37,842 nucleotides of DNA from NCBI GenBank assembly GCA_019237315.1, contig JAFAHG010000164.1, positions 1 through 37,842 on the forward strand, written 5' to 3'. Positions 16,520 through 37,842 of the stretch are shown here, one piece after another. The notes under the pieces are model-generated. The model searched no databases. It was not told the DNA's origin and saw nothing but the letters and a program-made list of their open reading frames with translations. The DNA is from Actinomycetota bacterium (lineage in GTDB: Bacteria; Actinomycetota; Thermoleophilia; Gaiellales; Gaiellaceae). Both the position numbers and the translations under genes were made by a program. The stretch's first letter is position 1. Every line of letters starts with the position of its first letter.

Positions 16520-17056
16520 GTGCCCGACTCACGCCGCCTGAGCCAGCGCCTCGCCGAAGGCGACGGGATCGCGATCATCGCGCGCGTCCAGGACGCCGAC
16601 GCAGCCCGCACGGCGGAGGCGCAGGGCGCGAAGGCGATCGCCGTCGAGCGCGCGATCGAAGGGATCAGGACGGCGACGTCGCTGCCGCTCCTCTGGACCG
16701 GAGCGAGCCCCGCGGTCGACGCCGACGCGCAGACGATCCGCCCCGACGACGACCATCCGGAGGCGCTCGAGCCGGTCGTCGACGTCCGCGACGAGGACGA
16801 GCTCGAGCAGGCACTCGAGCAGCTCGACCCGGAGATCTTCCTGCTCTCGGCGCGCGACACGGACGACGACGAGGACCCGCTCGAGGCCGTGCTCGAGCTC
16901 TTGCCGGACGTGCCGGCCGGGAAGCTCGCGATCGCGGAGCTCGACCTCGCGAGCCGCGACGAGGTGCTCGCCCTCGAGCGGGCCGGGGTCGACGCCGTCC
17001 TCGTCCAAGGCGCCCGCGTGGCGGAGCTCGTCGGGGCGCGCCCGCCCGACGTCTGA
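16520..17056 (+). CDS. Degenerate TrpC-like (IGPS-like) barrel protein
   Basis: The 178-residue protein resembles indole-3-glycerol phosphate synthase in pattern but is much shorter (usual about 260). Visible echoes are IIARVQDADAARTAEAQGAK near the N-terminus, LEPVVDVRDEDELEQALEQL at the place of TrpC's 'lvEvHdeeEle.Al', and the end LAIAELDLASRDEVLALERA followed by GVDAVLVQGARVAELV, like TrpC's 'ae(s)GI....dv..l..aGadavLvGe.l'. The catalytic lysine and the phosphate-binding NNRdL segment are absent (FLLSARDTDDDE instead). It is probably not an active IGPS. Acidic stretches (DTDDDEDPLEAV) are notable. A strong hairpin follows, so it ends the deoC-side unit. Function is unknown. Confidence 0.6.
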   Translation: MPDSRRLSQRLAEGDGIAIIARVQDADAARTAEAQGAKAIAVERAIEGIRTATSLPLLWTGASPAVDADAQTIRPDDDHPEALEPVVDVRDEDELEQALEQLDPEIFLLSARDTDDDEDPLEAVLELLPDVPAGKLAIAELDLASRDEVLALERAGVDAVLVQGARVAELVGARPPDV

Positions 17057-17252: not shown

Positions 17253-17501
17253 TCACTCGTTCGATGAAGTGTGGCCCGCCGCCCGGAGGAGCTCGTCGAG
17301 CGGTGCGCCGCTCCGGCCGCGAACGAGGCCGAGCAGGTAGCACGTGAGCGGCGCGTTCGTCCGCGCGCCGCTCTCGTGGGCCGCGACACCGGCGAGGGCG
17401 AGAAGCGCCTCGATCTCCGGCGGCGTCAGCTCGAGGTCGCCGCGTGGCAGTCCGGTTTCCTCGCTCAGGCGAGCGGCGACGTCTTGCAACCAGGCGTGCA
17501 T
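17253..17501 (-). CDS. DUF6457-type small protein
   Basis: The 82-residue product begins MHAWLQDVAARLSEETGLPR and continues with LTPPEIEALLALAGVAAHES and TNAPLTCYLLGLVRGR. This helical pattern is what I recall as DUF6457, a family of short actinobacterial proteins of unknown function that often sit beside molybdenum-cofactor or transporter genes; the family name is from memory. The start at 17501 is fixed by a good Shine-Dalgarno sequence (GGAGAAGAAGGAA) directly before the ATG; the frame continues upstream without family similarity. The gene diverges from the satP-family gene across 83 bases. Fragments of a second, diverged copy lie at 18650-18844. Confidence 0.75.
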   Translation of the reverse strand: MHAWLQDVAARLSEETGLPRGDLELTPPEIEALLALAGVAAHESGARTNAPLTCYLLGLVRGRSGAPLDELLRAAGHTSSNE

Positions 17502-17584: not shown

Positions 17585-18334
17585 ATGAGCACACTCGAAG
17601 AACGAAGGGCAAGAGCGTTCGCGGGTGTCGAGGACGCCTGGGAGGACGGCTTCGCGCGGCCACGCGTGTTCCTCCAGCCGATCGCCGCGCCCTCCATCCT
17701 CGGACTCGCGGGCTTCGCCGGTGCGACGTTCGTCGTCGCGTCGAACCTCGCGGGGTGGTGGGGGACGCCGACGTCGGGACTGACGCTTGCGCCGTTCGCC
17801 GCGATGTTCGGCGGGCTCGCGCAGTTCGCAGCCGGCATGTGGGCCTACAAGGCCCGCGACGGCATTGCAACGCTCGCGCATGGGACGTGGGGCTCCTTCT
17901 GGATGGCCTACGGACTCCTCAACATCCTGCTCGCGACGCACGTGCTCGCGGCGCCGACGCCCTGGTACCACAACCCGGCCGTCGGGTTCTGGTTCTTCGC
18001 GCTCGCGATCACGACCGGCATCGCGATGCTCGCAGCGATGACGGAGAGCATCCTCCTCACGGGGGTGCTCGCGACGCTCGCCGCGGGCTCCGGAATCCTC
18101 GCCGGCGCGTACATCTACGGCTCGCACGGCTGGGCGCAGGTCGCGGGCTGGGTGTTCGTCGTGTCCGCGGGTTTCGCGTGGTACGCCGTCATGGCGATGG
18201 TGCTCGCGGGTACGACGGGCCGCGCGATCATCCCGCTCGGCAAGTACAAGAAGGCGGCGAACGTTCCGGGTGGGCACGTGATCCGGCCGATTCAGCTCGA
18301 GTGGGCTGAGCCGGGCGTGAAGCAGGGCCAGTAA
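17585..18334 (+). CDS. Acetate uptake transporter, GPR1/FUN34/SatP family
   Basis: The 249-residue membrane protein has six predicted hydrophobic segments. Near the first is AAPSILGLAGF, a variant of the family's NPAPLGL motif, and the second contains FGGLAQFAAGMWAYKARDG, the highly conserved 'GG..Q...G.we...gn' stretch; GTWGSFWMAYGLLN follows. Family members (SatP in E. coli, Ady2/Ato1 in yeast) move acetate or succinate with protons. The NPAPLGL motif controls substrate passage, so its change here may alter specificity. Cytoplasmic N-terminal 35 residues and a C-terminal tail ending AEPGVKQGQ flank the bundle. A terminator follows. The last 35 codons with the terminator are duplicated at 24346-24508. 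Confidence 0.85.
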   Translation: MSTLEERRARAFAGVEDAWEDGFARPRVFLQPIAAPSILGLAGFAGATFVVASNLAGWWGTPTSGLTLAPFAAMFGGLAQFAAGMWAYKARDGIATLAHGTWGSFWMAYGLLNILLATHVLAAPTPWYHNPAVGFWFFALAITTGIAMLAAMTESILLTGVLATLAAGSGILAGAYIYGSHGWAQVAGWVFVVSAGFAWYAVMAMVLAGTTGRAIIPLGKYKKAANVPGGHVIRPIQLEWAEPGVKQGQ

Positions 18335-18359
18335 GAGACACACCTCCGCTCGCGCGGTA

Positions 18360-18385
18360 GAGGGCCCGTCGACCGGCGGGCCCTC
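18360..18385 (+). terminator. Hairpin terminator of the satP-family gene
   Basis: GAGGGCCCG pairs with CGGGCCCTC around an eight-base loop, 26 bases after the stop codon. The same hairpin recurs at 24477-24502, and its loop and 3' arm recur at 18845-18860. Confidence 0.75.
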
Positions 18386-18391
18386 GCCGTC

Positions 18392-18600
18392 TCGACGGAG
18401 CGGCGTGGGAGTCGAACCCACCCAGCCGTGGGCTACACGACCTGGCCGGTTTTGAAGCCCAGACCTAGGGCGGTTCGTGAGATCGGCATCGTGCGGGCTC
18501 TTGTTCGTTGTGGAGGTCAATCGAGACGATTGACCACGCGACTGCGGCCCCCGTTGTGGCAGTTCTGGCAGTTCGAAAAAGGTCGCGGCGGATGCTGTTC
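18392..18600. repeat. Dispersed tRNA-Sec-tailed repeat, copy A
   Basis: About 200 bases match copy B at 37646-37842 in the same orientation with small indels; I estimate 80-85% identity by eye. The left edge is sharp: the sequence before 18392 is the satP terminator region, and the duplicate of that region at 24508 continues into unrelated DNA instead. Inside are the tRNA-Sec 3' half on the minus strand (18396-18463) and a perfect nine-base inverted repeat GGTCAATCG/CGATTGACC (18515-18535) kept in both copies. The right edge is not defined because copy B runs off the window. It may be an attachment-site remnant or a mobile short element; no open frame in it looks real. Confidence 0.75.
18396..18463 (-). 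pseudogene. tRNA-Sec (UCA) 3' half
   Basis: Read on the minus strand, the segment has an anticodon loop CTTCAAA with UCA, a four-base-pair variable arm (AGCC CAC GGCT), a perfect T arm (GTGGG TTCGACT CCCAC) and the acceptor 3' strand GCCGCTCC plus discriminator G. The CCA is not encoded. The matching 5' acceptor strand (GGAGCGGC) and a D arm are missing upstream, and the anticodon stem is imperfect, so it is a fragment rather than a functional selC gene. The UCA loop and long variable arm identify tRNA-Sec; a tRNA-like decoy is the alternative. Confidence 0.65.
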
Positions 18601-18649
18601 CTGGAGAAACCGCGGCTTCACGCCGGCTTGCCTTTGTTGCCTCCTTGGA

Positions 18650-18730
18650 CGACGGCCTGGTGCCAGCGCGGCCGCCTGCGAGCCCGGGCAGGTAACAGGT
18701 GAGCAGTGCGTTTGTGCGCGCGCCGCTCTC
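18650..18730 (-). pseudogene. DUF6457 fragment, C-terminal half (inverted)
   Basis: Read leftward, the translation ESGARTNALLTCYLPGLAGG aligns with ESGARTNAPLTCYLLGLVRG of the intact gene at 17253-17501. The start, N-terminal half and a proper end are missing. It lies head to head with an N-terminal fragment on the other strand, so a paralogous gene has been split and partly inverted. Confidence 0.7.
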
Positions 18731-18735
18731 GGAGA

Positions 18736-18844
18736 GGTGTCGCCGATCGACCGGCCGAGGAAACTACGCTCCCGCGCGCGGACTTCGACCTCAGGCCGGC
18801 GGAGATCGAGGCGCTCCTCACGCTCGCGGGCCACGCCGCGCACG
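18736..18844 (+). pseudogene. DUF6457 fragment, N-terminal half
   Basis: Read rightward, GVADRPAEETTLPRADFDL and RPAEIEALLTLAGHAAH align with DVAARLSEETGLPRGDLEL and TPPEIEALLALAGVAAH of the intact gene. There is no start codon of its own. From 18845 the sequence switches abruptly to the loop and 3' arm of the satP terminator. Together with 18650-18730 it accounts for most of one broken DUF6457 gene. Confidence 0.7.
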
Positions 18845-18901
18845 CGACCGGCGGCCCCTCGCCGTCTCGACGGAGCGGCGTGGGAGTCGAACCCACCCAG
18901 C
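18845..18901. repeat. Partial repeat: satP terminator arm plus tRNA-Sec T arm
   Basis: These 57 bases repeat 18370-18426 with one mismatch (46 bases, 18856-18901, are perfect). They hold the loop and 3' arm of the satP terminator followed by the acceptor 3' strand and T arm of the tRNA-Sec fragment, then diverge where the variable arm should begin. This third copy keeps the satP-terminator/tRNA junction, so it derives from the satP 3' flank. Confidence 0.8.
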
Positions 18902-18937
18902 GACGAGCTTTTGTAACCAGATCTGCATACGCAGGGC

Positions 18938-18966
18938 TTGACTTTTGCGACGGCCGCGCGCATGCT
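18938..18966 (+). promoter_or_regulatory. Predicted promoter of the RCC1/FG-GAP/HYR gene
   Basis: TTGACT (18938-18943) and CATGCT (18961-18966) are separated by 17 bases. The leader would be about 28 bases and contains a weak Shine-Dalgarno site GAAAGG seven bases before GTG 19001. This is the best -35/-10 pair in the window. Confidence 0.55.
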
Positions 18967-19000
18967 GAGCGTGGCAGGCGCTGCGGCGAAAGGCCCCTGA

Positions 19001-22000
19001 GTGCACGGCGGTCGGTTCCACGGGGGGATCAGACGGTACGGAGCCCTGGCCGCGCTCGTTTCCGTTCTCGGTCTTGGATCGGCGGTCCCGAGTGTTGCCT
19101 CCGGCCCGCCGCCCACTCCCGCGCCGCAACTTGCAGCCGGCGCATCCCACACCTGTCTCGTCGTCGGCGCGGCGGTCGAGTGCTGGGGTAACAACGAGAC
19201 CGTTGCGGGAGCGCTGACGAATGGCGGCCCGCTCGGGGACGGAACGACGACGAACAGCGCCGTCCCGGTTGCGGCCTCGGTGCTGTCGGGCCAGGCGCAA
19301 GCGGTTGTGGCGGGCATCTACCACACGTGTGTGCTCACGACGACGGAAGCGGTCCAGTGCTGGGGCTTCAATCGCGAGGGCGAATCGAGTCCGGTTCCGG
19401 CCGGCGCCTATAAGCAGGTCTCGGCCGGCTGGTACTACACCTGCGGGCTGACCGACGCCGGCGGCGTTCGCTGCTGGGGCGAGGACCCGTCGCACGCATA
19501 CGTCCTCGGCGATGGGTCGTTGACGAGCGGCGTCGCGGCGATCGCGACCGGCGCCTACAACGTCTGCGCGCTGATGGCGAGCGACGGGAGCGTCGAGTGC
19601 TGGGGGAACGACGACTTCGGACAGCTCGGGCCGGGCGGGACGACATCCCATCCGGTGCCGGTGCCGGGGCTCACCGGCGTGCAGGCGATCACCGCGGGTG
19701 GCGGTTTCATGTGCGCCCTGGAGGGCGACGGAAGCGTCTGGTGCTGGGGGACTAACAACCAGACGCCGTTCATCAACTTCGGTTTCCCGCCGACGGAGCT
19801 GATCGCGAGTGGTGCAACGGCGATCGACGCGTTCTACAACCACGCCTGCGCTGTCGTCTCCGGGGGAGTCCGGTGCTGGGGCGACAACGCGTTCGGGCAG
19901 CTCGGGAACGGGACGACGACTGGGAGCAGCGCACCGGTACAGGTCAGCGGCCTGACGAACGGCGCCGTCGCCGTTGCGGCCGGCTACGACCACTCGTGCG
20001 CGCTGCTGGTCGGCGGCGCCGTCAAGTGCTGGGGGAGCAACTCCGCCGGCCAGCTCGGAAACGGGACGACCGCCGACAGTCTTACACCCGTCACCGTCTC
20101 GCTGCCCGTCGCTCCTCCACTTCCTCCGAGCTTCGGTCCCGCGACCGCCTTCGCGGCGCCGACGAGCCCCCAGGATGTCGTGCTCGCGGATCTGAACGGC
20201 GACGGGAAGCTCGACGCCGTCGTCTCGGACGAGCTCTCGAACAGCGTCGATGTCCTGCTCGGCAACGGCGACGGGACGTTCCAGACCGCTACCTCGTACC
20301 CGGCGGGCAGCTACCCCGGCGGCGTCGCCGTCGGAGACGTGAACGGAGACGGCAGGCCGGACATGGTCGTTGCCGATTCCGGCGCGGACGAGGTTTCTGT
20401 CCTGCTTGGCAACGGGGACGGGACGTTCCAGCCGGCCACGTCATTCTCGGCGGGTGGTGCGGGCGCACTCCAGGTGGCGCTCGCAGACGTCAACCGGGAC
20501 GGAAAGCTCGACATCGTAGTAGCCGGTTTCGGCGGCGTCGCGGTGTTGCTCGGGAACGGGGCGGGATCGTTCGGCGCTCCGACGACGTACGCCACGCCGT
20601 CGACCGCGTACAACCTCGCAGTCGGCGACGTGAACCGCGACGGTAAGGTCGACATCGTTACGGCCGACCAGTTCACGGGCGTCGGCGTGTTGCTCGGGAA
20701 CGGCGACGGCACCTTCCAGCCGTTGCACGAATACTCGGCAAACGCAGGCTCGGGGCAGGACCTGACCGCCGTTTCGATCGGCGATTTGAACGGGGATGGC
20801 AAGCCGGATCTCGCCGTCTCGAACTACGACGGCAACGAGGTCGACGTCATGCTCGGCAACGGCGACGGCAGCTTCGGCGCGCCGACGGCTTACGCAGCCG
20901 GCACGTCCCCTCAGGCCGGCGTGATCGCGGACGTCACCGGTGACGGCCGGCCTGACATCGCGGTCGCAGGCGGTGTCGTCTCGGTGCTTTCAGGGAACGG
21001 CGACGGGACGTTCCAGCCGGCGGTGGAGTATCCCGTCGGACGTCACCCGAACGCCGTTGCCCTGGGCGATGTGAACGGCGACGGCAAGCCCGACCTCGTC
21101 AGCGCGGACGCCGACACGAACACCATCTCGGTTCTCCTCAACACCGCCGTCGGCGTGAGCTTCGCAACGGCCCCCCCGACGATCACGACGACGACCCTCC
21201 CCGACGCGCCGATCCCCGCCGCGGGGAGCGCGAGCTACGCCGCCTCCGTGTCGGCGACCGGCGGGATGTTGCCCTACACGTTCACCGTGACCTCCGGTAG
21301 CCTCCCGCCGGGCTTGACGCTCGACCCCGACGGTTCGATTACCGGAACGGTCTCGAGCTCAGCGACGCCGGGAACGTCGTCGTTCACCGTCAGCGTGACC
21401 GGCGACGACGGCCTCAGTTCGAGCCAGGCTCTCTCGATCACGCTTCTCCCTCCGCCCGATGCGGACCTCGCGATCGGGGTGGCGTCCGGCGTGGTGGTCG
21501 AGTCGAATTACGCGACGGCGGTGAAGTTCGCCGCGCCGGCGGCGTCTGACGAGGGTGGTGAGTCGCCGCCGGTTGTGTGTGATCCGGCGTCGGAGGACAC
21601 GTTCCCGATCGGGTCGTTCACGGTGTCGTGTAGCGCGTCGGATCCGGACGACGCGAACAGTCCGGTGTCGTCGGAATTCTCGGTGACGGTGAAGCCGTTG
21701 CCGCCGGCCTTGGTGGTTCCAGGGCTCGTGTCGACGCCGACCGACCCGGCGGTGGTGCCGGTGTCGGGCACGGTGGCGCCGGGGGCGACGGTGTCGATCG
21801 ACGACGGCTCGACGCTGGTGGGGACTGCGACGGCTGATTCGAGCGGGAGCTTCACGACGTCGGTTGCGTTGAGCGTCGGGTCGCATTCGCTGACCGCGAC
21901 GCAGTCGGTGAACGGCGAGACGAGCGACGTCTCCGGCCCGAGCTTCGTCTCAGTCACGCTCGACGACGATCACGCTCTCACCGTGCCGGCGGACGTCGTC

Positions 22001-23911
22001 GTCGATGCGAACGGCATCACGGGCACAGTCGTCTCGTATGCCGGAGTCGCCGCGTCCGACGAAGGGGGAGAAACGCCGCCGGTGACCTGCAACCCGCTCT
22101 CCGGCTCCCTCTTCCCGATCGGGAAGACCGCCGTGACGTGCACGGCGTCCGACCCAGACGACGCGAACAGCCCCGTGACGGGGATCTTCAACGTGACGGT
22201 CAGGCCGCTGCCGCAGACCATCACCTTCCCGGCGCTCGCGAACACCTACCTCGGCGCTGCGCCGCCGACTGTCAGCGCGACTGCGTCGTCGAGCCTCACC
22301 GTCACCTTCACGACGACGACTCCGCTGACCTGCACGTCCGGCGGGACGAACGGGGCAACGATCACCCTCGCCGCCGTCGGAACCTGCACGGTTCGCGCGA
22401 GCCAGGCCGGGAATGCGAGCTACGCACCTGCTTCGCCCGTCGAGCGGAGTTTCGCCGTCGTGCCCGCCTCGCCCACCCTTTCGGCGCCGGCGACGTCGTT
22501 CTCGACGACCGTCCTCGTGAGCGGCGCAGGCCTGCCGAACGCCTCGGTGTCGATCTATGACGGCTCAACCCTGGCCGGTACGGCGACCGTCGACCCCTCC
22601 GGTGCGTTCGCGGCGACGCTGACCCTGGCCAACGGTACGCACACGTTGACGGCGACGCAGACCGTAAGCGGCCTCACCAGCGCGCCGTCGGCGGCGGTCA
22701 CCGTCAGCGTCGTTCTTGCCGACACGCCCACGCTGCACCTGCCGGGTGATCTCGTCGTTGAGGCCAGGAACGCCTCAGGCGCAGTGGTGCGCTTCACGGC
22801 GACGGCGACCGACCCGGTGGACGGGACGGATCGTGTGTCGTGCAATGCCCGGTCCGGGTCGACGTTCCCGCTCGGCGTGACGGCGGTGACGTGCTCTGCG
22901 ACGAACGCGCACGGCGTGACGGCAACAGGTGGATTCTCCGTCACCGTGCAGGACACGACGCCGCCGGTGTTGCGGCTGCCGCCCGACCGCGTGCGCGAGG
23001 CGACCGGCCCTGACGGACGTGTGGTGCGCTTCCATGCGACGGCAGTGGATGCAGTCGACGGTTCAGTGGCGGTGACATGCGTGCCGGCATCCGGCTCGAC
23101 GTTCCCGCTCGGAGCGACGACGGTTTCCTGCTCGGCGAAAGATTCGGCTGGGAACAGCGCGACGGGAACGTTCTCGGTGACCATCGTGGACACGACACCC
23201 CCGCGGTTGCACCTGCCCGGCCGAGTGATGGCCGAGGCGACCGGGCCGTCGGGCGCACCGGTGTCGTTCACGGCGACGGCTGACGACCTTGTCAGCGGTT
23301 CGGTGCCGGTCGCCTGCGTGCCGTCCTCCGGTTCGACGTTCCCGCTCGGGCAGACGACGGTCTCGTGCTCGGCCACCGATGCGGCTGGGAACACGGCAAC
23401 GGGGAGCTTCCAGGTCGTCGTGCGCGACACGACCGCGCCGGTCCTGACCCTCCCGGCGAGCGCCCAGGCCGAGGCAGTAGGCCCGACCGGGGCGCCCGTC
23501 TCGTTCACCGCCTCGGCGAGCGACGCGGTTGACGGCGTCGTGCCGGTGACGTGCTCGCCCGCTTCCGGTTCCGTCTTCCGCGTCGGGACGACGACGGTCA
23601 GATGCTCGGCAACCGACGCGCACGGTAATCGCGCAACTGGGAGCTTCGGTGTCACCGTGACCGACTCGACGCCGCCGACACTGCACCTGCCGGCGAACCT
23701 GTCGGTGCAGGTGTCAGGACCGGCGACGAGCTCGGTGGTCAGGTTCACCGCGACCGCGACCGACCTGGTCGACGGCTCTGACCCCGTCAGCTGCGCGCCG
23801 GCGTCGGGCTCGAGCTTCCCGATCGGCACGACCACGGTGAACTGCAGCTCCCACGACGCTCACGGCAACGCGACGACCGGCAGCTTCACCGTCACCGTCT
23901 CGCACCGTTAG
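19001..23911 (+). CDS. Secreted RCC1 / FG-GAP / HYR multidomain protein
   Basis: The 1636-residue protein starts with a signal peptide (GALAALVSVLGLGSAVPSVAS). Residues about 45-370 hold seven RCC1 repeats (HTCxL...VxCWGxN..GQLGNGT), enough for one seven-bladed propeller. Residues 380-716 hold seven FG-GAP/VCBS repeats with calcium-binding DxNxDGxxD loops (DLNGDGKLDAVV) and LLGNGDGTFQ ends, a second seven-bladed propeller. A putative Ig domain (PYTFTVTSGSLPPGLTLD) follows, then HYR 1, an Ig-like domain, HYR 2, a TITFPALANTYLGAAPPTV segment, another Ig-like domain, and HYR 3-7 (res 1243-1636), each with a cysteine pair. No membrane anchor or sorting signal ends the protein (FTVTVSHR). It is probably exported and adhesive or ligand-binding; the ligand is unknown. 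GTG start; own promoter upstream. Confidence 0.88.
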   Translation: MHGGRFHGGIRRYGALAALVSVLGLGSAVPSVASGPPPTPAPQLAAGASHTCLVVGAAVECWGNNETVAGALTNGGPLGDGTTTNSAVPVAASVLSGQAQAVVAGIYHTCVLTTTEAVQCWGFNREGESSPVPAGAYKQVSAGWYYTCGLTDAGGVRCWGEDPSHAYVLGDGSLTSGVAAIATGAYNVCALMASDGSVECWGNDDFGQLGPGGTTSHPVPVPGLTGVQAITAGGGFMCALEGDGSVWCWGTNNQTPFINFGFPPTELIASGATAIDAFYNHACAVVSGGVRCWGDNAFGQLGNGTTTGSSAPVQVSGLTNGAVAVAAGYDHSCALLVGGAVKCWGSNSAGQLGNGTTADSLTPVTVSLPVAPPLPPSFGPATAFAAPTSPQDVVLADLNGDGKLDAVVSDELSNSVDVLLGNGDGTFQTATSYPAGSYPGGVAVGDVNGDGRPDMVVADSGADEVSVLLGNGDGTFQPATSFSAGGAGALQVALADVNRDGKLDIVVAGFGGVAVLLGNGAGSFGAPTTYATPSTAYNLAVGDVNRDGKVDIVTADQFTGVGVLLGNGDGTFQPLHEYSANAGSGQDLTAVSIGDLNGDGKPDLAVSNYDGNEVDVMLGNGDGSFGAPTAYAAGTSPQAGVIADVTGDGRPDIAVAGGVVSVLSGNGDGTFQPAVEYPVGRHPNAVALGDVNGDGKPDLVSADADTNTISVLLNTAVGVSFATAPPTITTTTLPDAPIPAAGSASYAASVSATGGMLPYTFTVTSGSLPPGLTLDPDGSITGTVSSSATPGTSSFTVSVTGDDGLSSSQALSITLLPPPDADLAIGVASGVVVESNYATAVKFAAPAASDEGGESPPVVCDPASEDTFPIGSFTVSCSASDPDDANSPVSSEFSVTVKPLPPALVVPGLVSTPTDPAVVPVSGTVAPGATVSIDDGSTLVGTATADSSGSFTTSVALSVGSHSLTATQSVNGETSDVSGPSFVSVTLDDDHALTVPADVVVDANGITGTVVSYAGVAASDEGGETPPVTCNPLSGSLFPIGKTAVTCTASDPDDANSPVTGIFNVTVRPLPQTITFPALANTYLGAAPPTVSATASSSLTVTFTTTTPLTCTSGGTNGATITLAAVGTCTVRASQAGNASYAPASPVERSFAVVPASPTLSAPATSFSTTVLVSGAGLPNASVSIYDGSTLAGTATVDPSGAFAATLTLANGTHTLTATQTVSGLTSAPSAAVTVSVVLADTPTLHLPGDLVVEARNASGAVVRFTATATDPVDGTDRVSCNARSGSTFPLGVTAVTCSATNAHGVTATGGFSVTVQDTTPPVLRLPPDRVREATGPDGRVVRFHATAVDAVDGSVAVTCVPASGSTFPLGATTVSCSAKDSAGNSATGTFSVTIVDTTPPRLHLPGRVMAEATGPSGAPVSFTATADDLVSGSVPVACVPSSGSTFPLGQTTVSCSATDAAGNTATGSFQVVVRDTTAPVLTLPASAQAEAVGPTGAPVSFTASASDAVDGVVPVTCSPASGSVFRVGTTTVRCSATDAHGNRATGSFGVTVTDSTPPTLHLPANLSVQVSGPATSSVVRFTATATDLVDGSDPVSCAPASGSSFPIGTTTVNCSSHDAHGNATTGSFTVTVSHR

Positions 23912-24345
23912 CCACCGTCCCCCCGCGCGCAGGCGGAGACCAAGATCTCGACAACGTCGGCTGACGCGCGGCAAGCGGTCGTCGTCCCCCGAGATCGAAC
24001 CTGCCGCCGAAGCTTCTCGTGCATCCAGTGCGTTCAGGCCAGAGCGGTACGACGTTGCGCCCGAGCCCGTCGAGGAAGCCGAGGCGTCGGCGTGAAATTT
24101 GGCCTTACGAGGTCCGAAGGTAGACGGGAGCGGGGTTTTCGCCCCGCTCCCGTCCGCCTACATCCCGTTAGATTCGGGTAGGTCGGCACGAAGTTCGGTA
24201 CGAAATCGCCCGCGCTCGGGTCGCGGGCAGTTCGCGACCGCTCATGAGCACGTCTGGCGTGTTCGGCTGCTCTGGGATGGGCGGGCGCGCGAATGACACG
24301 GAGTCCCCGCGCGCCCGCGCTAAGACAAGCCGACAAGCGAAGGGC
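23912..24345. other. Intergenic stretch with one strong terminator, otherwise no gene seen
   Basis: The 434 bases after the HYR gene contain the terminator at 24123-24154 and a second hairpin GGTCGCG/CGCGACC (24219-24239). Frames here have no recognisable product. It ends where the duplicated satP tail begins. A TTCGGTA/TTCGTAC-like near-repeat around 24188-24205 gives a repetitive leftward translation (FVPNFVPT) that I could not assign. Confidence 0.6.
24123..24154. terminator. Strong hairpin terminator
   Basis: GACGGGAGCGGGG pairs perfectly over 13 bases with CCCCGCTCCCGTC around a TTTTCG loop. It lies 211 bases after the HYR gene stop, the only strong candidate to end that transcript. No T-tract follows. 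Confidence 0.75.
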
Positions 24346-24451
24346 CATCCCGCTCGGCAAGTAAAAGAAGGCCGCGAACGTCCCGGGTGGGCACGTGATC
24401 CGGCCGATTCAGCTCGAGTGGGCTGAGCCGGGCGTGAAGCAGGGCCAGTAA
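24346..24451 (+). pseudogene. Duplicated 3' tail of the satP-family gene
   Basis: The last 35 codons and stop of the transporter gene (18229-18334) recur here with three substitutions; one changes TAC to TAA and makes an internal stop. The rest of the gene is absent. Including the following terminator, 163 bases align without gaps with seven differences by hand count. The copy is not translatable as a protein and marks a duplication breakpoint. Confidence 0.9.
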
Positions 24452-24476
24452 GACACGCACCTCCGCTCGCGCGGTC

Positions 24477-24502
24477 GAGGGCCCGTCGATCGGCGGGCCC
24501 TC
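24477..24502 (+). terminator. Duplicate of the satP terminator
   Basis: GAGGGCCCG/CGGGCCCTC stem as at 18360-18385, with one loop change. After 24508 the sequence departs from the original: there is no tRNA-Sec repeat here. Confidence 0.7.
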
Positions 24503-24508
24503 GCCGTC

Positions 24509-24634
24509 CTTGATCCCTCATTGGAGAGATTCGCGCTTGACTTCTATCGCGCGTTGAGCAATCGTCAGCTTCAGGCAAGGAAGCCTCCCTGAATCTCCGG
24601 GAACCGGAGAGAAAGGTCTGCGGAAGCGGTTGGG
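24509..24634 (+). promoter_or_regulatory. Upstream region of the giant Ig/NHL gene
   Basis: TTGACT at 24537-24542 is a good -35; the -10 is unclear (AATCGT region near 24560). A hairpin TCTCCGG/CCGGAGA with a three-base GAA loop lies at 24594-24610 in the presumed leader. The stretch follows the duplicated satP terminator directly, so the giant gene once stood directly downstream of a satP-type gene. Confidence 0.35.
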
Positions 24635-27600
24635 ATGGGTGTCGCACAGCGGCGCCGCGAGTCGGGGGACTGCGGCGACGGCCACGGTGGGAGCAGCACG
24701 GTGACGCAGTTGCGAGCCGTGCAGCGCCGGCGTGGACCGCTTGCGATGTGGATCGTCGCCGTGGCGATCCTCGTCTGGGGGCTCGCGTTGTCGAGCTCCG
24801 CGGGCGCGAGCGATCCGTTCGGCGGGCCGACGCACACCTATACGAACATCGCGTTCGGCGGCAACCAGTGCACGGGGACATTCGTGACGACCGCGAACGG
24901 CAGCTTCTTCGAGAGCCAGCGCAACTGCACAAACCCGAGCCTGAACAGCGACGACCTTCTTTTCGTCCCGGGCGACTTCAGCGCGTGTCCGGGGTCGCCC
25001 TTCAGCGTCGACAACACCTACAACACGAGTCAGGATCCGCAGCTCGTCGCGAACACCGGCGGCGGCATTCCGGCGAACACGCCCTACACCGCCTGCTTCT
25101 ACAACGCGAGCGCGGACACCGGTCCGGCGGTCACGCTGTCGGGTGTCGCCTCCGGCTCGGTGTATCCGTCCACGGCGCAGCCGACGCCGTCGTGCACAAC
25201 GACGGCGGGGACGTTCGGCGTCTATCAGAACGCGACCCCGTCGACCGCCTCGTCGGGCGACGCATTCACCGCGACGTGCTCGGGTGGGGAAGACGACTTC
25301 CTCGCGGCCGCCACGCCGGTGAGCGTCAACTACTCGGTGGCGTTGCCTTCCACGTGTAGCGGGATCAACGCGGGCACGTCGCTCACGGACTGCGGCTTCG
25401 AGACGCCGGTCGTCGGCGCGGGCAGCTTCCAGTACAACCTGACCGGCACGCCGTGGACATTCAGCGGGAAGGCCGGCATTTCTGGCAACGGCTCGGGGTT
25501 CACGGGCGGCAACCCGAATGCGCCCGAGGGATCGCAGGTGGGGCTCATCCAACAGGGACCGTCGCTCGGCGGCGGCTCGATCTCGCAGTCGGTCACGGGC
25601 TGGAGCTCCGGGAAGCTCTACACGCTGACGATGAGCATCGCGCAGCGGCTCGCGAACTGCGGATTCGTCGGGTCGATTCCCGGCTGCCAGCCGGAGGACT
25701 TCAAGGTCCTGCTCGACAGCACCGTGATCGGGACGTTCACGGCGAGCAGCGGCACCTACACCGACGTCTCGACCTCGCCGTTCACCGCCTCGACCGGTAC
25801 GCACACCCTGACGATCTCTGGCATCGACAGCGCCGGTGGAGACGACTCCGTCTTCATCGACTCGCTGCGTCTCACCTCGACCGACATCGTCGTCGTCTCG
25901 CCCACACTCTCGACGACGCCGACCGGCGGAGTTGCGTTGGGCGGAGCGGTGTTCGACACCGCGACGCTCGCGGGGGCGCAGAACCTCCTCGGCGGCGACC
26001 AGATCACCTTCAAGCTCTACGGGCCGTCGGCCTCTGCCAACTGCAACGGCACCCCGGTCTATACGCAGACCGTCGCCGTGACGGGGAACGGCAACTACGG
26101 CTCGGGGAACTTCTTCCCGACCACGCCGGGTACCTACTGGTGGACCGCGAGCTTCAACGGCGACGCGGACAACAACCCGGCGTCGAGCGGCTGCGGCTCG
26201 GAGTCGGTCACCGTTTCCGCGGCGTCGCCGACGCTGACGACGACGCCGTCGGCGGGGATCGCGCTCGGCGGGACGGTGTCGGACACGGCGACGATCGCCG
26301 CCGGGCAGGGCCTGCAGGCGGGCGACACGATCACGTTCCGGCTCTACGGCCCGTCGACCTCGGCAAGCTGTTCCAGCGCGATCTTCACCCAGTCGGTGAG
26401 CGTGTCAGGCAACGGCAGCTATACCTCCCCGACCTTCGCCCCGACGGCCGCCGGTACCTATTGGTGGACGGCGAGCTTCAGCGGTGACGCGAACAACAAC
26501 GCCGTCGCGAGCAGCTGCGGCACGGAGTCGGTGGTCGTCTCGAAGGCCACGGCGACGCTCTCGACGACCCCGTCTGCGGGCTACACGTTCGGAAGCGGCG
26601 GCACGCCGGGGACGATCTCGACGGTTGCGGGCATCGGCTCGGGTGGGTTCTCGGGCGATGGCGGGCCGGCGACGAGCGCGCAGCTCTGGCAGTCGTTCCA
26701 GACGGCCTTCGACGCGAGCGGCGACATGCTGATCGACGACTACCAGAACAACCGGGTGCGGCTAGTGGCGGCGGCGACGTGCTCGAGCAACTGCCCCTAC
26801 GGACTTGCCTCGATGACGAAGGGTTCGATTTACACCGTCGCCGGTAATGGGAGCGGCGGTCTTTCGGGCGACGGCGGAGCGGCGACGAGCGCCGCGCTCA
26901 ACTCGCCGGTCGGAGTTGCGGTCGACGCGAGCGGCGATCTGCTGATCGACGACTACCTGAACAACCGCGTGCGGCTGGTGGCGGCGGCGTCGTGTTCGAG
27001 CGGCTGTCCGTACGGGCTCGCGTCGACGACCAAGGGGTTCATCTACACCGTCGCAGGGACCACGGCCGGTTACTCGGGCGACGGGGGGCCGGCGACGAGC
27101 GCTGCGATCAACTTCCCGTTGGGCATCGGCATCGACACGAACGGGGATCTGCTCATCGGCGACTACGGCAACAATCGCGTGCGGCTCGTCGCAGCGGCGA
27201 CCTGTTCGAGCGGCTGCCCGTACGGGCTCACCTCGACGACGAAGGGTTTCATCTACACCGTTGCCGGCATCGGGAGCCCCGGCTTCTCGGGTGACGGCGG
27301 CCCGGCGACGAGCGCCGTGCTTTCGTACCCATACGGCGTCGGCGTCGACGCGCGGGGCGATCTCCTGATCGCCGACGCCCCGAACTACCGCGTGCGGTTG
27401 GTCGCGGCGGCGTCGTGCTCGAGCGGCTGCCCGTATGGGTTCGCTTCGCTGACGAGGGGCTCGATCTACACCGTTGCGGGCAACGGAAGCGCCACCGATT
27501 CGGGCGACGGTGGAGCAGCCACGAGCGCAGGACTCAACTACCCCATCGGAGTGACCGCCGACGCGGCCGGCGACATCCTCATCACCGACAGCGGCAACCG

Positions 27601-30600
27601 CGTGCGGTTGGTCGCGGCCGCCTCGTGTTCGAGCGGCTGCCCGTACGGGCTCGCGTCCACGACGAAGGGCTCCATCTACACGGTCGCGGGCACGGGGAGC
27701 TTCGGCTACTCGGGCGACGGCGGGCCGGCGACGAGCGCCCAGCTCGCCAGCCCATGGTCATCGACGGTCGACGCGAGCGGCAACCTGTTCATCTCCGACC
27801 GCTCCAACAACCGGGTGCGGATCGTGCAGGGGGCGACCGCCGTGAGCGACCAGGCGACGCTCGCGGGCGGCGCCTCGCCTTCCGGCTCGATCACGTTCAA
27901 CCTATACGGCCCCTCGAGCACGGCGAACTGCACCGGCACGCCGATCTACACGAACGGCGTCGGCGTCGCGGCGAACGGCAGCTACGGCTCCGGCTCGTAC
28001 GCGCCAACCACCGCCGGCACCTACTGGTGGACGGCGAGCTACAGCGGCGACGGGAACAACAACGCGGCATCGAGTAGCTGCGGGTCGGAGTCGGTGGTCG
28101 TCGCGAAGGCTTCCCCGACGATCTCGACGACGCCCTCGTCGGGGATCACGCTCGGCGGCGGCAGCGTGAGCGACCAGGCGACGCTCGCCGGCGGCAGCGG
28201 CCTCGCGGGTGGCTCGATCACGTTCAACCTCTACGGGCCGTCGTCGTCGCAGGTCTGCACCGGCACGCCGGTCTACACGGACGCGGTGAGCGTCGCGGGT
28301 AACGGCAGCTTCGGCTCGGGCAACTACAGCCCGACGGCGGCCGGTACCTACTGGTGGTCGGCGAGCTTCAGCGGCGACACGAACAACAACTCCGTCGTGA
28401 GCGTCTGCGGTCAGGAGTCGGTCACGGTCGGAAAGGCCTCGCCGACGCTGAGCACGACGCCGTCGGCGAACACCGTGCTCGGCGCGTCCGTGTCCGACCA
28501 GGCGACCCTCGCGGGCGCGCAGAGCGTCGTGAGCGGCGACACGATCGCCTTCAACCTCGTCCGCTACACGCTCGGGTCGCCGAGCCCGACCGCCGCTCAG
28601 GTCTGTGCCGGAACCGGCACCGGCTTCGTCGGCACGGTGTTCACCCCGACCGTGAGCGTCTCGGGCAACGGCATCGTCGGCTCCGGCACCTACACGCCGG
28701 CCGCGACGGGCAACTACTACTGGTGGGCGAACTTCGCCGGCGACGCGAACAACAACGCCGCCAGTACGTGCACTGTCGTCGCCGGGGTCACGGTCTCGAA
28801 GGCTTCGCCGACGATCGCGACGACGCCGTCGGCCGGCCTGACCCTCGGCGGCTCGGGCGGCGGTGCGACGATCTCGACCGTTGCCACGTCCGTGATCCCC
28901 TTCGCGGTGGCGGTCGACGCGAACGGCGACTCGTTGATCGCGGACGTCAACCAGGACCGGATCTGGCTCGTGGCAGCGTCGTCGTGTTCGAGCAACTGCC
29001 CGTACGGGCTCTCCTCGATGACCAAGGGTTCGACGTACACCGTCGCGGGGACGGGTGCTTACGGTTTCTCGGGCGACGGCGGGCCTGCGACGAGCGCGAG
29101 CCTCTTCGGCCCGTACGGGGTGACGGTCGACGCGAGCAACAACATGCTGATCGCCGACGAGGGAAACAACCGGATCCGGCTGGTCGCTGCCGCGTCGTGC
29201 TCGAGTGGCTGTCCCTACGGTCTCGCGTCGATGACGAAGGGTTTCATCTACACGGTCGTTGGCAGCGGAGGGGGCGGTTTTTCCGGCGACGGTGGGCCCG
29301 CGTCGAGCGCCACACTCTTCACCCCGCTCGCGGTCGCATTCGACGCGCGCGGCGACCTGCTGATCGCTGACTACAACAACAGCCGGATTCGGCTGGTCGC
29401 AGCTGCGTCGTGCTCGAGCGGCTGTCCTTGGGGGCTGTCGTCGATGACGCAGGGCTTCATCTACACGGTCGCGGGTAGCGCGTCGGCGGGCTTCGCGGGT
29501 GACGGCGGGCCCGCGACGAGTGCTCGGCTCGACAACCCGCGCGCGGTCGCCGTCGATCCGAGTGGCGACCTCCTCGTCTCCGACTCGAGCAACTATCGGG
29601 TGCGCCTCGTCGCCGGTGCGTCGTGCTCGAGCGGCTGCCCGTTCGGGCTCGCGTCGACGACCAAGGGATCGATCTACACGGTGGCAGGGACCGGCGGCTC
29701 TGGCTTCTCGGGCGACGGCGGGCCGGCGACGAGCGCAACGCTCTCCTTTCCGATCGGAGTGACGAGCGACGCGAGCGGCGACCTCGTGATCGGCGACTAC
29801 GAGAACTACCGGGTGCGTTTGGTCGCGGCCTCGGCGTGTTCGAGCGGCTGCCCGTTCGGACTCGCCTCGATGACGAAGGGGTCGATCTACACGGTCGCGG
29901 GCAACGGCAACAGCAGCCCCTCGGGCGACGGCGGGCCGCCGACGAGCGCCGGAATCGGCTACCCGATGGCGGTGGCACTCGACGCGCACGGGAACCTGCT
30001 GATCGGCGACGTGGCCGACGCCCAGTTGCGGAAGGTACAGGCCGGAGGAAGCGCGTTGAGCGACCAGGCGACGCTTGCCGGCGGGGTCTCACTCTCGGGC
30101 GGCTCGATCACCTTCAACCTCTACGGACCGTCCAGCTCCGCCGATTGCACAGGCGCCCCGGTCTACAGCCAGGCGGCGAGCGTGACCGGCAACGGCCCGT
30201 ACACCTCGGGCAGCTATACCCCGACGGCGGCCGGGACGTACTGGTGGACGGCGAGCTTCGCCGGCGATGGGAACAACAACGCGGTCGCGAGCAGCTGCGG
30301 CACGGAGTCGGCGGTCGTGGCCAAGGCCTCGCCCACGATTTCGACGACGGCGTCCAGCGGTGTCACGCTCGGCGCCGGCAGCGTCAGCGACCAGGCCACC
30401 CTCGCCGGCGGCGTGAGCCTCGGCGGCGGGTCGGTCACCTTCAATCTCTACGGGCCGTCGAGCTCGGCCGTCTGCACCGGTACGCCGGCCTACACGCAAA
30501 CAACGAGCGTCTCCGGCAACGGCAGCGTCGGCTCGGGCAACTTCACACCGACCGCGGCAGGGACCTACTGGTGGACGGCGAGCTTCGGCGGCGACGCGAA

Positions 30601-33600
30601 CAACAACAGCGCGGCGAGCGCGTGCGGGGCCGCTTCCGTCACCGTCGCGAAGGCCACGCCGACATTGAGCACGACCTCTCCGGCGAACATCGTCCTCGGC
30701 GGGGTGGTGTCGGACGCCGCGACGCTCGCCGGTACGCAGAGCGTCGTGACCGGCGACTCGATCACGTTCCGGCTGTACGGACCCTCGGCCACCGCGAACT
30801 GCGCCGCCGCGATCTCGACGCAGTCGGTGAACGTGGCGGCGGACGGCAGCTACATCTCCCCGGTCTTCACGCCGCCTGCGGCGGGCACGTACTGGTGGAC
30901 GGCGAGCTTCAGCGGAGACGCGAACAACAATACGATCACGACTTCGTGCGGAGCCGAGTCGGTCGCCGTGGCGAAGGCCTCGCCGACCCTGGCCAACACG
31001 CCGTCGCCCGGCATCCCGCTCGGCGGCGGCACGCTCAGTGACACGGCGACGATCGCGGCCGGCGTCGGACTTGGCGGCGGCACGCTCACGCTCAAGGTCA
31101 TCCGCTACGCGCTCGGGTCGGCGACCCCGACCGGCGCGCAGGTCTGCGCGGCAGGGCCCGTCTACTCGGTGTTCGTGCACGGCGTGACGCACAACGGCGA
31201 TTACGTCTCGGGCAGCTATACGCCGCTCGCAACGGGCAACTACTACTGGGTGGCGCTCTTCAACGGCGACGCCAACAACAACGCGGTCGACACCTGCGCC
31301 GCGCTGTCCGAGGTCACGGTCTCGCCCGCCTCGCCGACGCTGACGACGACGCCGTCGGCTCCGGTCGTCCTCGGCGCAGGGTCGCTGAGCGATCAGGCGA
31401 CGCTCGCCGGCGGCGTCGGTCTCGGCGGCGGCTCGATCACGTTCGACCTCTACGGGCCCTCTGCGACCGCGGACTGCTCCGGTCTTCCCGTCTACACGTC
31501 GACAAGCGGCGGAATCTCCGCGAACGGCAACGTCGGCTCGGGCAGCTTTTCGCCGACCGCGGCAGGGACGTACTGGTGGACGGCGAGCTTCGGCGGCGAT
31601 TCGAACAACAACGGCGCCGCGACGAACTGCGGCGACGAGTCCGTCACCGTCTCGCCCGCCTCGCCGACGCTGACGACGACGGCGTCGCCGACGATCGTCC
31701 TCGGCGGCACGGTGGGCGACCTCGCCACCCTCGCCGGCGGCTTCAGCCTCGCGTCGGACTCGATCACGTTCAACCTGTATGGGCCCGCCGTGTTCGCGGA
31801 CTGCACGGGGACGCCGGTCGACACCGAGACGGTGAGCGGCGTGTCGAGCAACGGTGTCTATCCGTCGCCGAACTTCACGCCGACAGCGGCCGGCACCTAC
31901 TGGTGGACGGCGAGCTTCAGCGGCGACGGCGACAACAACGCCGCCGCAACGACGTGCGGCCTCGACTCGGTCGTCGTCCAACTCGCGACGCCGACCCTCA
32001 CCTCGACCGCGTCGAACGGGATCGTGCTCGGCGCCGGCACCGTGAACGACCAGGCGACGCTCGCCGGGGGCGTGAGCCTCAGCGGCGGCTCGATCCTGTT
32101 CAGCCTCTACGGGCCCTCCGCGACCGCCGACTGCACGGGAACGCCGGTCTACACGAACACCGCGCCCGTCTCCGACAACGGCAGCTTCGGCTCGGGTGAC
32201 TTCACACCGCTCGACGCCGGCACCTACTGGTGGACGGCGAGCTTCAGCGGCGACGGCAACAACAACCCTGTCACGACGAACTGCGGCGACGCGTCGGTCG
32301 CCGTTGCGAAAGCGACGCCGTCGATCTCGACGGTGTCCGACCCGATCGCGCTCGGCTCGAACGGCGGCGACGCCGCGGCCGTGCTCGGGGCTCAGTCCCC
32401 GCTCGGCGGCGACACGGTCACCTTCGACGTCTACGGGCCGTCCCCGACGGCCGACTGCACCGGCACGCCGGTGTACACCCAGATCGCCCCGGTCGCAATC
32501 GGTCGGCACAAGCCCGGCGCCAGCCCCGTCGTTCGTGCGAGCTCCGGGCACTTCGCCCCGACCGCCGCCGGCACCTACTGGTGGACGGCGAGCTTCAGCG
32601 GCGACGCGAACAACAACGCGGCTTCGACGAGCTGCGGCGACGAGTCGGTCGCCGTGCCGCCGGCCTCCCCGACGCTGGCCAACACGCCGTCGGGCGACAT
32701 CGTGCTCGGCGGCACGGTGTCCGACACCGCGGCGCTCGCCGGGACGCAGTTCCTGACCGGCGGCGACGCGATCACGTTCGCGCTCTACGGCCCGTCCATC
32801 AAGGAGGACTGCACGAACCAGGTGTTCGCGCAGACGGTCGACGTCGCCGCCGACGGAAGCTACGCCTCCACGGCGTTCACGCCGACGGCGGCCGGCAGGT
32901 ACTGGTGGGCGGCGAGCTTCAACGGCGACGCGAACAACAACCCGGCGGCCACGAACTGCGCCGACGGGTCGGTCGTCGTGTCGAAGGCATCGCCAACCAT
33001 CTCCACGACGGCCTCGGCTCCGATCGTGCTCGGGAATTCGCTGAGTGATACGGGGACGCTCGCCGGCGGCGTCGACCTCGGCGGCGGCGCGATCGAGTTC
33101 AACCTGTACGGCCCATCGGCGACCGCAGACTGCTCGGGCCTGCCGCTCTACACGTCGACGGTGGGCGGAATCGCCTCGAACGGCGACGTCTCCTCGGGCA
33201 GCTTCTCCCCGACGGCGGCCGGGACGTACTGGTGGACGGCGAGCTTCGGTGGTGACGCCAACAACAACGGCGTGACGACGAACTGCGGCGACGAGTCGGT
33301 GGTCGTCTCGCCCGCATCACCCACGCTGACGACGACGGCGTCGGGGCCAATCGTCCTCGGCGGCACCGTCGGTGACCTCGCGACGCTGGCCGGCGGCCTC
33401 GACTTCGCGAGCGACTCGATCACGTTCAACCTGTACGGGCCGTCTCTGTTCGCGAACTGCTCGAACGCTCCCGTCTACACGCAGACGGTCGGCGGCGTTT
33501 CGGCGAACGGCGTCTACGCCTCCGCGAACTTCACGCCGACAGCGGTCGGCACCTACTGGTGGACAGCGAGCTTCGGCGGCGACGGGAACAACAACCCGGC

Positions 33601-36600
33601 GGCGACGAGCTGCGGCGGTGCGTCCGTCGTCGTCTCGCCCGCCTCGCCGACGCTCGCGACCGTCGCCTCCGCCGGCGTGGTTCTCGGCGCCGGTTCGGCG
33701 AACGACCAGGCGACGCTCGCGGGCGCCCAGGATCTCCTCGCCGGTGACGCCGTCACGTTCGACCTGTATGGCCCGTCGGCTTCCGCGAGCTGCTCGGGCT
33801 CCCCGGTGTACACGCAGACGGTGCCGGTGTCGGCGAACGGCTCGTTCGGCTCTGGCAGCTTCACGCCGGTCGCCGCGGGTACGTACTGGTGGACGGCGGC
33901 CCTCGCCGGTGACGCGAACAACAACGCCGCCGCGACGACCTGCGGGGACGCATCCGTCCTCGTGTCGAAGGCCACGCCCACGCTCTCCGGCAACCCGTCG
34001 GCCGCGATCGTCCTCGGGGGCGGCACGGTGAGCGACCAGGCGAGCCTCGCCGGAGCGCAGCAGCTCCTGAGCGGTGACGCGATGACGTTCAGCCTCTACG
34101 GCCCGTCGACCTCCGCGAATTGCTCCGGCAACCCGGTGTACACGCAGACAGTGCCGGTATCGGCGAACGGTTCGTTCGGCTCCGGCAGCTTCACGCCGGC
34201 CGCCGCCGGCACGTACTGGTGGACTGCCGCCTACAACGGGGACGCGAACAACAACGGAGCTACGACGAGCTGCAATGCAGAGCCGGTCGTGGTCTCGCCC
34301 GCGTCGCCGACGCTTTCCACGGTCGCCTCGGCCGGGACCGTCCTCGGTGGAGCGGTCTCCGATACGGCGACGCTCGCGGCCGCGCAGCACCTGCTGAACG
34401 GTGATGCGATCACGCTCAGCCTCTACGGCCCGTCGGCATCCGCGAGCTGCTCGGGCAGCCCGGTGTACGCGCGGACGCTGAGCGCGACCTCGAACGGAAC
34501 CTACGGCTCCGGCAGCTTCACGCCGGTCGCCGCCGGCAAGTACTGGTGGACCGCCTCCCTCGCCGGAGACACGAACAACAACGCCGTCGCGACGAACTGC
34601 GGCGACGCCTCGGTCGTCGTGTCGCCCGCGTCCCCGACGCTCTCGACGACCCCGTCCGGCACGATCGTCCTCGCGAGCGGCACCGTGAGCGACCAGGCGA
34701 CGCTTGCGGGCGCGCAGGATCTGCTCAACGGCGACTCGATCACGTTCAAGCTGTACGGGCCGTCGGCGTCGGCGGTCTGCACCGGCACGCCGGTGTACAC
34801 CGCTTCGGCAGCCGTCTCCGCGAACGGCGCCTACTCCTCGCCGAGCTTCTTCCCGGGCGCGGCCGGCACGTACTGGTGGACGGCGAGCTTCAACGGAGAC
34901 TCGAACAACAACGCGGCCGTGAGCGGCTGCGGCGCCGAGTCGGTCGTCGTCTCCCAGACGACGCCCACGCTGACGACGGCGCCGACGCCGGCGATCGTTC
35001 TCGGCAGCGGCACCGTGAGTGACCTCGCGACGCTCGCCGGCGGCGCGAACCTCGGCCTCGACTCGATCACGTTCAACCTGTACGGGCCGTCCACCTTCGC
35101 GGTCTGCACCGGCACGCCGGTGTACACGCAGACCGTGAGCGGCGTGACCGGGAACGGTCTCTACTCGACGACCCCCTTCACGCCGCTGAGCGCGGGCACG
35201 TACTGGTGGACGGCGAGCTACAGCGGCGACTCCAACAACCATGCCGCGGTGAGCGGCTGCGGCGCCGAGTCGGTCACGGTCGCCGCCGACTCGCCGACGC
35301 TCGGCACGACGCCGTCCGGAACGGTCGCGCTCGCCGGAACGGTCTCCGACGCGGCGGCGCTGACGGGCGCGCACAGCATCCTCGGCGGCGACACGGTCGC
35401 GTTCAGCCTCTACGGGCCGTCGGCAACCGCCCTCTGCACGGGTGCTCCCGTGTACATCTCGAGCGGGAACGTGACGACGAGCGGAACGGCCGCCTCCGGC
35501 AGCTTCGTCCCGGCAGCGGCGGGCACGTACTGGTGGACGGCGAGCTTCGCCGGCGACGTGAACAACAACGCCGCGGCGAGCGCCTGCGGCTCCGAGAAAG
35601 TCGTCGTCTCCCCGGCCTCGCCGACGATCACGACCTCCTCTTCGGGCGGCATCGCCCTCGGCGGAACGGTTTCCGACTCGTCCGGTCTCGCCGGCAGCGT
35701 CAACCTGACGGGTGCCGGCACCGTCACGTTCAACCTCTACGGCCCTTCCGCCACGGCCGTATGCACCGGGACGCCTGTCTACACGAAGACGCTGAGCGCC
35801 GTCTCGACGAACGGGCCCTTCGCCTCGGGCGCGTACGCGCCGGTTTCGACGGGCACGTATTGGTGGACGGCGACGTTCAGCGGGGACGCGAACAACAACA
35901 CCGCCGCGACCGCTTGCGGCAGCGAGTTCGTGACCGTGATCCCGGCGAACGCCAACCAGACCGTCGGCGCCGGCCAGACGCTTCAGCTCTCCGGCGGCAC
36001 GCTCCACGGCACGGTGACGGTGCAGCCCGGCGGGACGCTCCTCCTGAACGGCGGCACGCTGACCGGCCAGGTGAACGCCACCGGCGGAACCGTCAACGTC
36101 TCGAGCGGCAGCCTGAACGGCAACGTTCAGCTCTCCTCCGGCGCGACGCTCAACCTCTCCGGCGGCACGATCGCCGGCAACGTCCAGGGTCAGGACACCT
36201 CCGGCGTGTCGATCACCGGCGGCAGCGTGCAGGGGAACGTCCAGACCCAGATCGGGCCGGTCACCGTCGGCTCGGGCGCGACCGTGACGGGCAACGTGCA
36301 GACGCAGGGCGGCTCGATCAACGTCGGCGGCAGCGTCTCGGGCGACGTCCAGTTCAACGCGCCCGGCAACTCGACGGCCTGCGCGACCGTCGCCCTTGCG
36401 TCGAGCGCCTCGGTGGCCGGAAACGTGAGCGTCCAGAACCTCCCGTCGTGCGGTAGCTCGTCGGTGTCGGTCTCGGGTTCGATCGGCAAGGACGTGAAGC
36501 TGCAGCAGGTTGCCGCCGGCGGCTCGGTCACGATCGCGAACGCCGCCGTCGGCGGCCAGGTGCAACTGCAGCAGGTGACGGCGTCGTCGGTGTCGGTGAC

Positions 36601-37645: not shown

Positions 37646-37842
37646 TCGACGGAGCGGCGTGGGAGTCGAACCCACCCAGCCGTGGGCTACACGACCTGGC
37701 CGGTTTTGAGCCCAGACTTTGGGCGGTTCGTGAGATCCGGCATCGTGCCGGTTCTTGATGGTTGTGGAGGTCAATCGAGACGATTGACCGCGCGACTGGG
37801 CGCCAGTTTTGGCAGTGCAAAAAGGGCTGTGCGGATGCTGTT
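37646..37842. repeat. Dispersed tRNA-Sec-tailed repeat, copy B (runs off the window)
   Basis: Direct repeat of 18392-18600, beginning at the same CGACGGAGCGG edge three bases after a stop codon. It keeps the nine-base inverted repeat (37769-37789) and has an intact six-base hairpin CCGGCA/TGCCGG (37737-37751) that is degraded in copy A. The window ends within the repeat. Confidence 0.75.
37650..37715 (-). pseudogene. tRNA-Sec (UCA) 3' half, copy B
   Basis: Same T arm, variable arm and acceptor 3' strand as at 18396-18463, but one base is missing in the anticodon loop (CTCAAAA instead of CTTCAAAA). The 5' half is absent, so it cannot be a working tRNA. Confidence 0.65.

Follow-up and report, generated by a model that had tools for sequence, protein, structure and literature searches.

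Why does one and the same flanking sequence run, at one place on a bacterial contig, into a piece of a selenocysteine tRNA (tRNA-Sec) gene, and at another into unrelated DNA? The window in which this occurs is the entire contig C180 (37,842 nucleotides) of a 2.33 Mb Gaiellaceae genome assembled in 301 contigs. An earlier note had taken the two places for the filled and empty versions of a single site, and the tRNA-derived piece for a discrete mobile unit, perhaps a tRNA-derived short element. The observation is confirmed; the interpretation is partly supported, most of it failing. The repeat is very probably the broken-off end of a tRNA-Sec gene, a scar of tyrosine-integrase islands inserting into that gene. 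Such a scar is a known kind of feature, of the ordinary island-integration type; it gives an ordinary cause to what had been a candidate for a new class of tRNA-derived mobile elements in bacteria, and so removes that candidate.

The satP tail and the edge of the repeat

The satP gene (17585–18334, plus strand) belongs to the GPR1/FUN34/YaaH family (PF01184, E 6.4e-20). Its 3′ flank does stand twice in the window, as 163 bases each on the plus strand: copy A at 18229–18391 and copy B, the supposed empty site, at 24346–24508. Pairwise alignment finds 156 of 163 bases equal and seven differing sites, and this identity of 95.7% bears out the roughly 96% that had been counted by hand. The duplicated part takes in the last satP codons, a terminator hairpin (18360–18385) and the hexamer GCCGTC. 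Beyond 18391 and 24508 the two copies agree at 7 of 40 bases, which is chance level, so that the edge is sharp and similarity does not continue past 18392 into the 24509 side.

The precise left boundary claimed for the repeat holds for this pair, but not for a third copy of the terminator side, at 18845–18901, which matches 18370–18426 at 98% and spans the 18392 boundary, with 21 of 22 bases agreeing to the left of it. The repeat therefore does not end at 18392 every time, and its left ends show the very variability that the note had set against its own reading.

A true empty site should run into the DNA found to the right of the filled copy. Since 24509–24634 has no match in the DNA following the repeat on its right, and since the copy at 24346 is truncated at its other side too, 24508 is not an empty site, contrary to what had been proposed. 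Copy B begins within satP and carries a stop codon in the satP frame, and is thus a decayed fragment rather than an intact locus. The satP-tail copies at 24346 and 18845 would be later local duplications, arising outside the integration mechanism proposed below. Further duplication is visible in the DUF6457 gene (17253–17501, minus strand; PF20058), which has two mutually inverted relics within 18669–18853, 83% identical to 17314–17376 and 75% identical to 17366–17480. Together, these relics and the copy at 18845–18901 show that pieces of this stretch were duplicated locally several times, which could account for the paired flanks without any transposition.

Displaced tRNA-Sec 3′ halves and their arms

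The tRNA part of the repeat has three copies in its own assembly, at 18392, 18867 and 37646, all of them on C180 and on the minus strand. The first, W1 (18392–18462), is a displaced tRNA-Sec 3′ half: read from 18462 to 18392, it comprises an anticodon loop with TCA, the variable arm, the T arm and the 3′ acceptor strand up to the discriminator base, followed by a four-nucleotide trailer (18392–18395). The second, W2 (18867–18901), is a 35-nt tRNA-Sec 3′ end joined to 22 bp (18845–18866) from the terminator flank of satP. The third, W3 (37646–37715), is another displaced 3′ half with a one-nucleotide deletion in the anticodon loop, and its copy of the repeat extends into the contig end at 37842. 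Alignment to intact tRNA-Sec genes of relatives upholds the tRNA-Sec origin asserted in the earlier note, and places the beginning of both W1 and W3 at the anticodon stem/loop.

A functional tRNA-Sec gene at W1 was considered and rejected, as the 5′ half and the cloverleaf are missing. No full tRNA was found in the window by ARAGORN, or by Rfam at the gathering score; at a loose threshold, W1 reaches 23.8 bits against the Rfam tRNA-Sec model RF01852, whose gathering score is 47. Its folding z is −0.25, whereas a relative's intact tRNA-Sec gives −3.12; no functional RNA fold was found in the secondary structure that the note had thought worth checking. The W1 core is best matched, at 90% identity, by a genome of another genus (G024), while same-genus tRNA-Sec genes reach 76–82%; it is thus nearer to other genera than to its own, which blurs its donor and history.

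Each of the two larger pieces has an arm upstream of it on the minus strand. That of W1 (18463–18600, perhaps on to about 18660) is shared with W3 and reads as a P′-type island end; that of W3 (37716–37842) is cut by the contig end. The conserved arm measures about 140 bp, with 117 matches, 14 substitutions and 13 gap columns between the two. Both contain a perfect 9-bp inverted repeat (18515–18535 in W1), read from the sequence and from their alignment. A putative arm-type motif, CAGTCGC, chosen post hoc, lies at 18538–18544 on the minus strand, 82 nt from the core, and its counterpart in W3 at 37792–37798. A 26-bp block of the W1 arm recurs in the arm next to a displaced fragment of the same-genus genome G008: against that arm W1 scores 32 (shuffle maximum 29) and W3 scores 40 (shuffle maximum 27), in each case for a single short block. 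The 26-mer had no match in the genome_contigs or viral_contigs collections, from which the own and very near genomes may be left out, and when the repeat plus arm was searched against 103 family genomes the arm part was matched in the own genome only.

tRNA-Sec loci and integrases in related genomes

With window positions 18392–18670 as query, 57 of the 103 family genomes gave a match at E 1e-6 or better. The census that followed, covering genomes mostly picked for having hits and hence not a random sample, comprises 62 tRNA-Sec 3′-half hits in 41 genomes, the own genome included. A rule based on the 5′-half score first counted 32 of them as displaced and 28 as intact, the other 2 being truncated by contig ends. 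Four of the "displaced" hits (G052, G038, G003 and G073) proved to be complete tRNA-Sec genes by ARAGORN and were reassigned, which leaves 28 displaced halves in 19 genomes (three of the 28 being those of the window), 32 intact genes and 2 cut ones. A second copy in G085 (L157, 8615–8705) is called complete by ARAGORN, but its 5′ half is unlike tRNA-Sec, and it was counted as displaced. tRNA-Sec thus appears as a repeatedly used island target in the lineage, with displaced halves in 19 of 41 mostly hit-selected genomes.

How do displaced and intact copies lie with respect to each other? This geometry was determined with each genome's own tRNA-Sec as query, at 24 loci plus G008, excluding hits weaker than E 0.001. 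In six genomes, displaced halves lie 0.7–10.3 kb downstream of the intact tRNA-Sec and on the same strand: at 0.7 kb in G038, 2.3 kb in G085, 2.6 kb in G075 (with an additional short piece 6.4 kb away), 4.0 kb in G052 and 10.3 kb in G099, while G043 has displaced pieces at 1.1, 1.6 and 3.2 kb. The displaced half is identical to the genome's own intact gene in G052 (100% over 64 bp) and G085 (100% over 69 bp), and close to it in G075 (96.8% over 62 bp) and G099 (90.5% over 74 bp). G008 has its intact gene on one contig and the displaced half on another, each at or close to a contig end; the two are 98.5% identical over 66 bp. Eight of the ten measured fragments begin in the anticodon region, at tRNA positions 26, 28, 30, 30, 31, 32, 32 and 34, and two short ones begin at 72 and 75. 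At none of 33 loci, drawn from around tRNA-Sec or further matches, did satP or DUF6457 occur with a tRNA-Sec hit. An ancestral order satP-tRNA-Sec was dropped, having appeared in none of these 33 loci, nor in 15 selA loci, at the cut-offs used.

In the 150 nt preceding each displaced half, motif occurrence was measured against 200 shuffles. The motif [CT][AT]G[TG]CGC, picked after inspection, is present in 13 of the 27 arms of displaced halves, where shuffles gave a mean of 3.65 and at most 9, and upstream of 5 of 31 intact genes (shuffle mean 5.78); the other 14 displaced arms are without it. Its distance from the core is 49–99 nt (−82 in W1 and −83 in W3), and in four arms (G023, G008, G102 and G097) it is paired, 12 nt apart. 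A narrower form, [AT]GTCGC, is weaker: it occurs in 7 of 27 arms, and the shuffle maximum is likewise 7. The motif in displaced-fragment arms, W1 and W3 included, may be of the integrase arm type.

Integrases accompany several of these loci. In G052 a frame-broken tyrosine integrase, with a SAM-like N-terminal domain and a PF00589 match of 2.1e-12, lies between tRNA-Sec and the displaced half. In G101 a homolog of it adjoins a tRNA-Sec 3′ half, and in G099 one lies 2.2 kb from tRNA-Sec. G026 has an integrase relic less than 1 kb from tRNA-Sec, and G049 a PF00589 gene 1.3 kb from a displaced half. Selected ORFs from the intervals of G014, G043, G075 and G085 belonged to other families or to none (Fic, glycosyltransferase, cyclase-domain). 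No integrase (PF00589) was found in the window, the own genome's PF00589 hits being on C194 and C63. The latter, a fragment at the contig start (L201, G000:C63 1–518), was considered as the missing integrase and dropped, since it adjoins tRNA-Thr.

Island integration and its alternatives

The identity of the fragments, their start in the anticodon loop, the same-strand pairs of intact and displaced copies, the integrases of relatives, and the shared arms and motif all argue for island integration. A tyrosine integrase would recombine in the anticodon loop of tRNA-Sec; the island would supply a tRNA 3′ half that makes the gene whole again, and the original host 3′ half would end up at the opposite end of the inserted DNA, beyond the island's arm, one displaced 3′ half being left per integration. 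The DNA left of 18392 would then be whatever lay downstream at the time. On this account, 18392–18600 and 37646–37842 are in all likelihood attR-type ends, with 18392 the outer edge of the attachment core. As W1 and W3 are in direct orientation and 19.25 kb apart, they would record two stacked integrations, both decayed, and the window probably contains a stack of islands, now decayed, at a tRNA-Sec gene. We infer that the intact gene would lie beyond 37842, that W1 and W3 would come from separate integrations, and that events would have followed this order. Several findings weigh against this account: this genome's assembly yielded neither an intact tRNA-Sec nor, at the cut-off, selB; no integrase was found in the window; none of the 33 loci pairs satP or DUF6457 with tRNA-Sec; the W1 core is closest to another genus; the W1 arm resembles that of G008 in one short block; and 14 of 27 displaced arms are without the motif. 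The mobile behaviour suggested in the earlier note thus survives in the sense that the repeat is part of mobile DNA, but not as a discrete, SINE-like unit, given the intact-plus-displaced tRNA-Sec pairs of relatives, with island DNA in between.

The arrangement has well-described parallels. According to the Islander account, an island integrated at a tRNA gene restores the tRNA at one of its ends, and the displaced 3′ part marks the other; its Table 1 gives a 3′ fragment in 3760 of 3919 islands and an anticodon-centred site in 2083 (PMC4383910). As in the islands described there, the tRNA-Sec fragment is a displaced 3′ part that starts in the anticodon loop and, in relatives, lies downstream on the same strand, with an integrase near the tRNA in some of them; unlike those islands, the window is without an intact tRNA or an integrase, and some intervals in relatives are shorter than 2 kb, below the length filter of that database (PMC4383910). 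Prokaryotic tRNA gene fragments have also been attributed to island integration in PMC9897764, and the partial tRNA genes reported there would share their origin with ours; the seven integration cases in the main data set of that source are archaeal, whereas the present ones concern tRNA-Sec in Thermoleophilia.

The same tRNA isotype is the target of the selC islands of enterobacteria, whose hosts are unrelated. Could a single integration suffice here, one displaced half having been copied with its neighbourhood by local recombination? Such a plain segmental duplication is possible, though unlikely. Local duplication of other pieces is certain (the satP tail at 24346, the DUF6457 relics at 18669–18853 and W2 at 18845–18901). 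W1 and W3, however, differ by 0 substitutions in 65 aligned core bases (with one gap) and by 14 in 131 arm bases (Fisher p 0.006), which is unexpected from one neutral duplication. A core more alike than its arm fits a core held by tRNA function before displacement, and so, as far as these alignments can tell, two successive integrations into a selected tRNA fit better than one duplicated pseudogene, gene conversion being an alternative source of the contrast.

It is improbable that the part of the contig right of about 17060 was wrongly joined during assembly or binning. Synteny with the 11 same-genus contigs compared does break off after the IGPS-like orf16520 (16520–17056), at about 17056; DNA to the right of that point has no counterpart in these 11 contigs, which likewise give no clean view of an unoccupied site, and the contig ends in a repeat within a 301-contig assembly. 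Against a chimera, LepA at the left end of the contig is 82–88% identical to same-genus matches, the same-genus G005 has a satP fragment with 91% identity over 57 aa, and the seven differences between the satP tails show that the assembler did not place a single sequence twice. From about 17056, the contig is either strain-specific or wrongly joined.

The window also holds two very large repeat-protein genes flanked by tRNA-Sec fragments: an RCC1/FG-GAP/HYR repeat protein of 1636 aa (19001–23911, plus strand), between W1/W2 and W3, and a repetitive ORF of 4216 aa (24635–37285, plus strand), between W1 and W3. That displaced tRNA-Sec halves in Thermoleophilia are recombination sites at which an integrase acting in trans stacks cassettes made of cargo alone seems very doubtful, even though intact-displaced intervals of 0.7–3 kb occur and in several the scanned ORFs are not integrases; it is just as hard to credit that the window is a tRNA-anchored array with the two giant genes as cargo. 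Scarcely credible at all is a tRNA-Sec-derived short interspersed element moved by another element's enzymes: three copies on one contig and the sharp edge at 18391/24508 speak for it, but it was rejected because the copies are not dispersed (none elsewhere in the own assembly), their left ends differ, the right end is undefined where W3 runs off the contig, 24508 is no empty site, and relatives have intact-plus-displaced pairs in cis and integrases.

Under island integration, where should the selenocysteine genes of this genome be sought? Its assembly has no intact tRNA-Sec, the eight best Rfam tRNA-Sec hits being or overlapping tRNA-Ser, Leu, Gly, Arg or Trp, and no selB at the cut-off. It does have selA, at the extreme end of contig C21, alongside formate dehydrogenase, fdhD-mobA and selD (L165, G000:C21 140–8477). 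This selA is 66–71% identical to same-genus copies, 70–73% to four records from other lineages and 66% to one, and was perhaps acquired, to judge by these identities. Of 15 selA records labelled Thermoleophilia, Gaiellaceae, Actinobacteria or Actinomycetota, 12 have selB on the far side of selA and 6 have tRNA-Sec on the same stretch, a neighbourhood that makes an assembly gap at the selA end of the own genome plausible. Attachment-site repeats can break assemblies at selB/tRNA-Sec, and genomes may then seem to be without selenocysteine genes. In G101, which has five matches, contigs L153 and L154 end within tRNA-Sec 3′ halves, as expected if such repeats break assembly. The integrase fragment beside tRNA-Thr on C63 may in turn be another tRNA-targeted island end.
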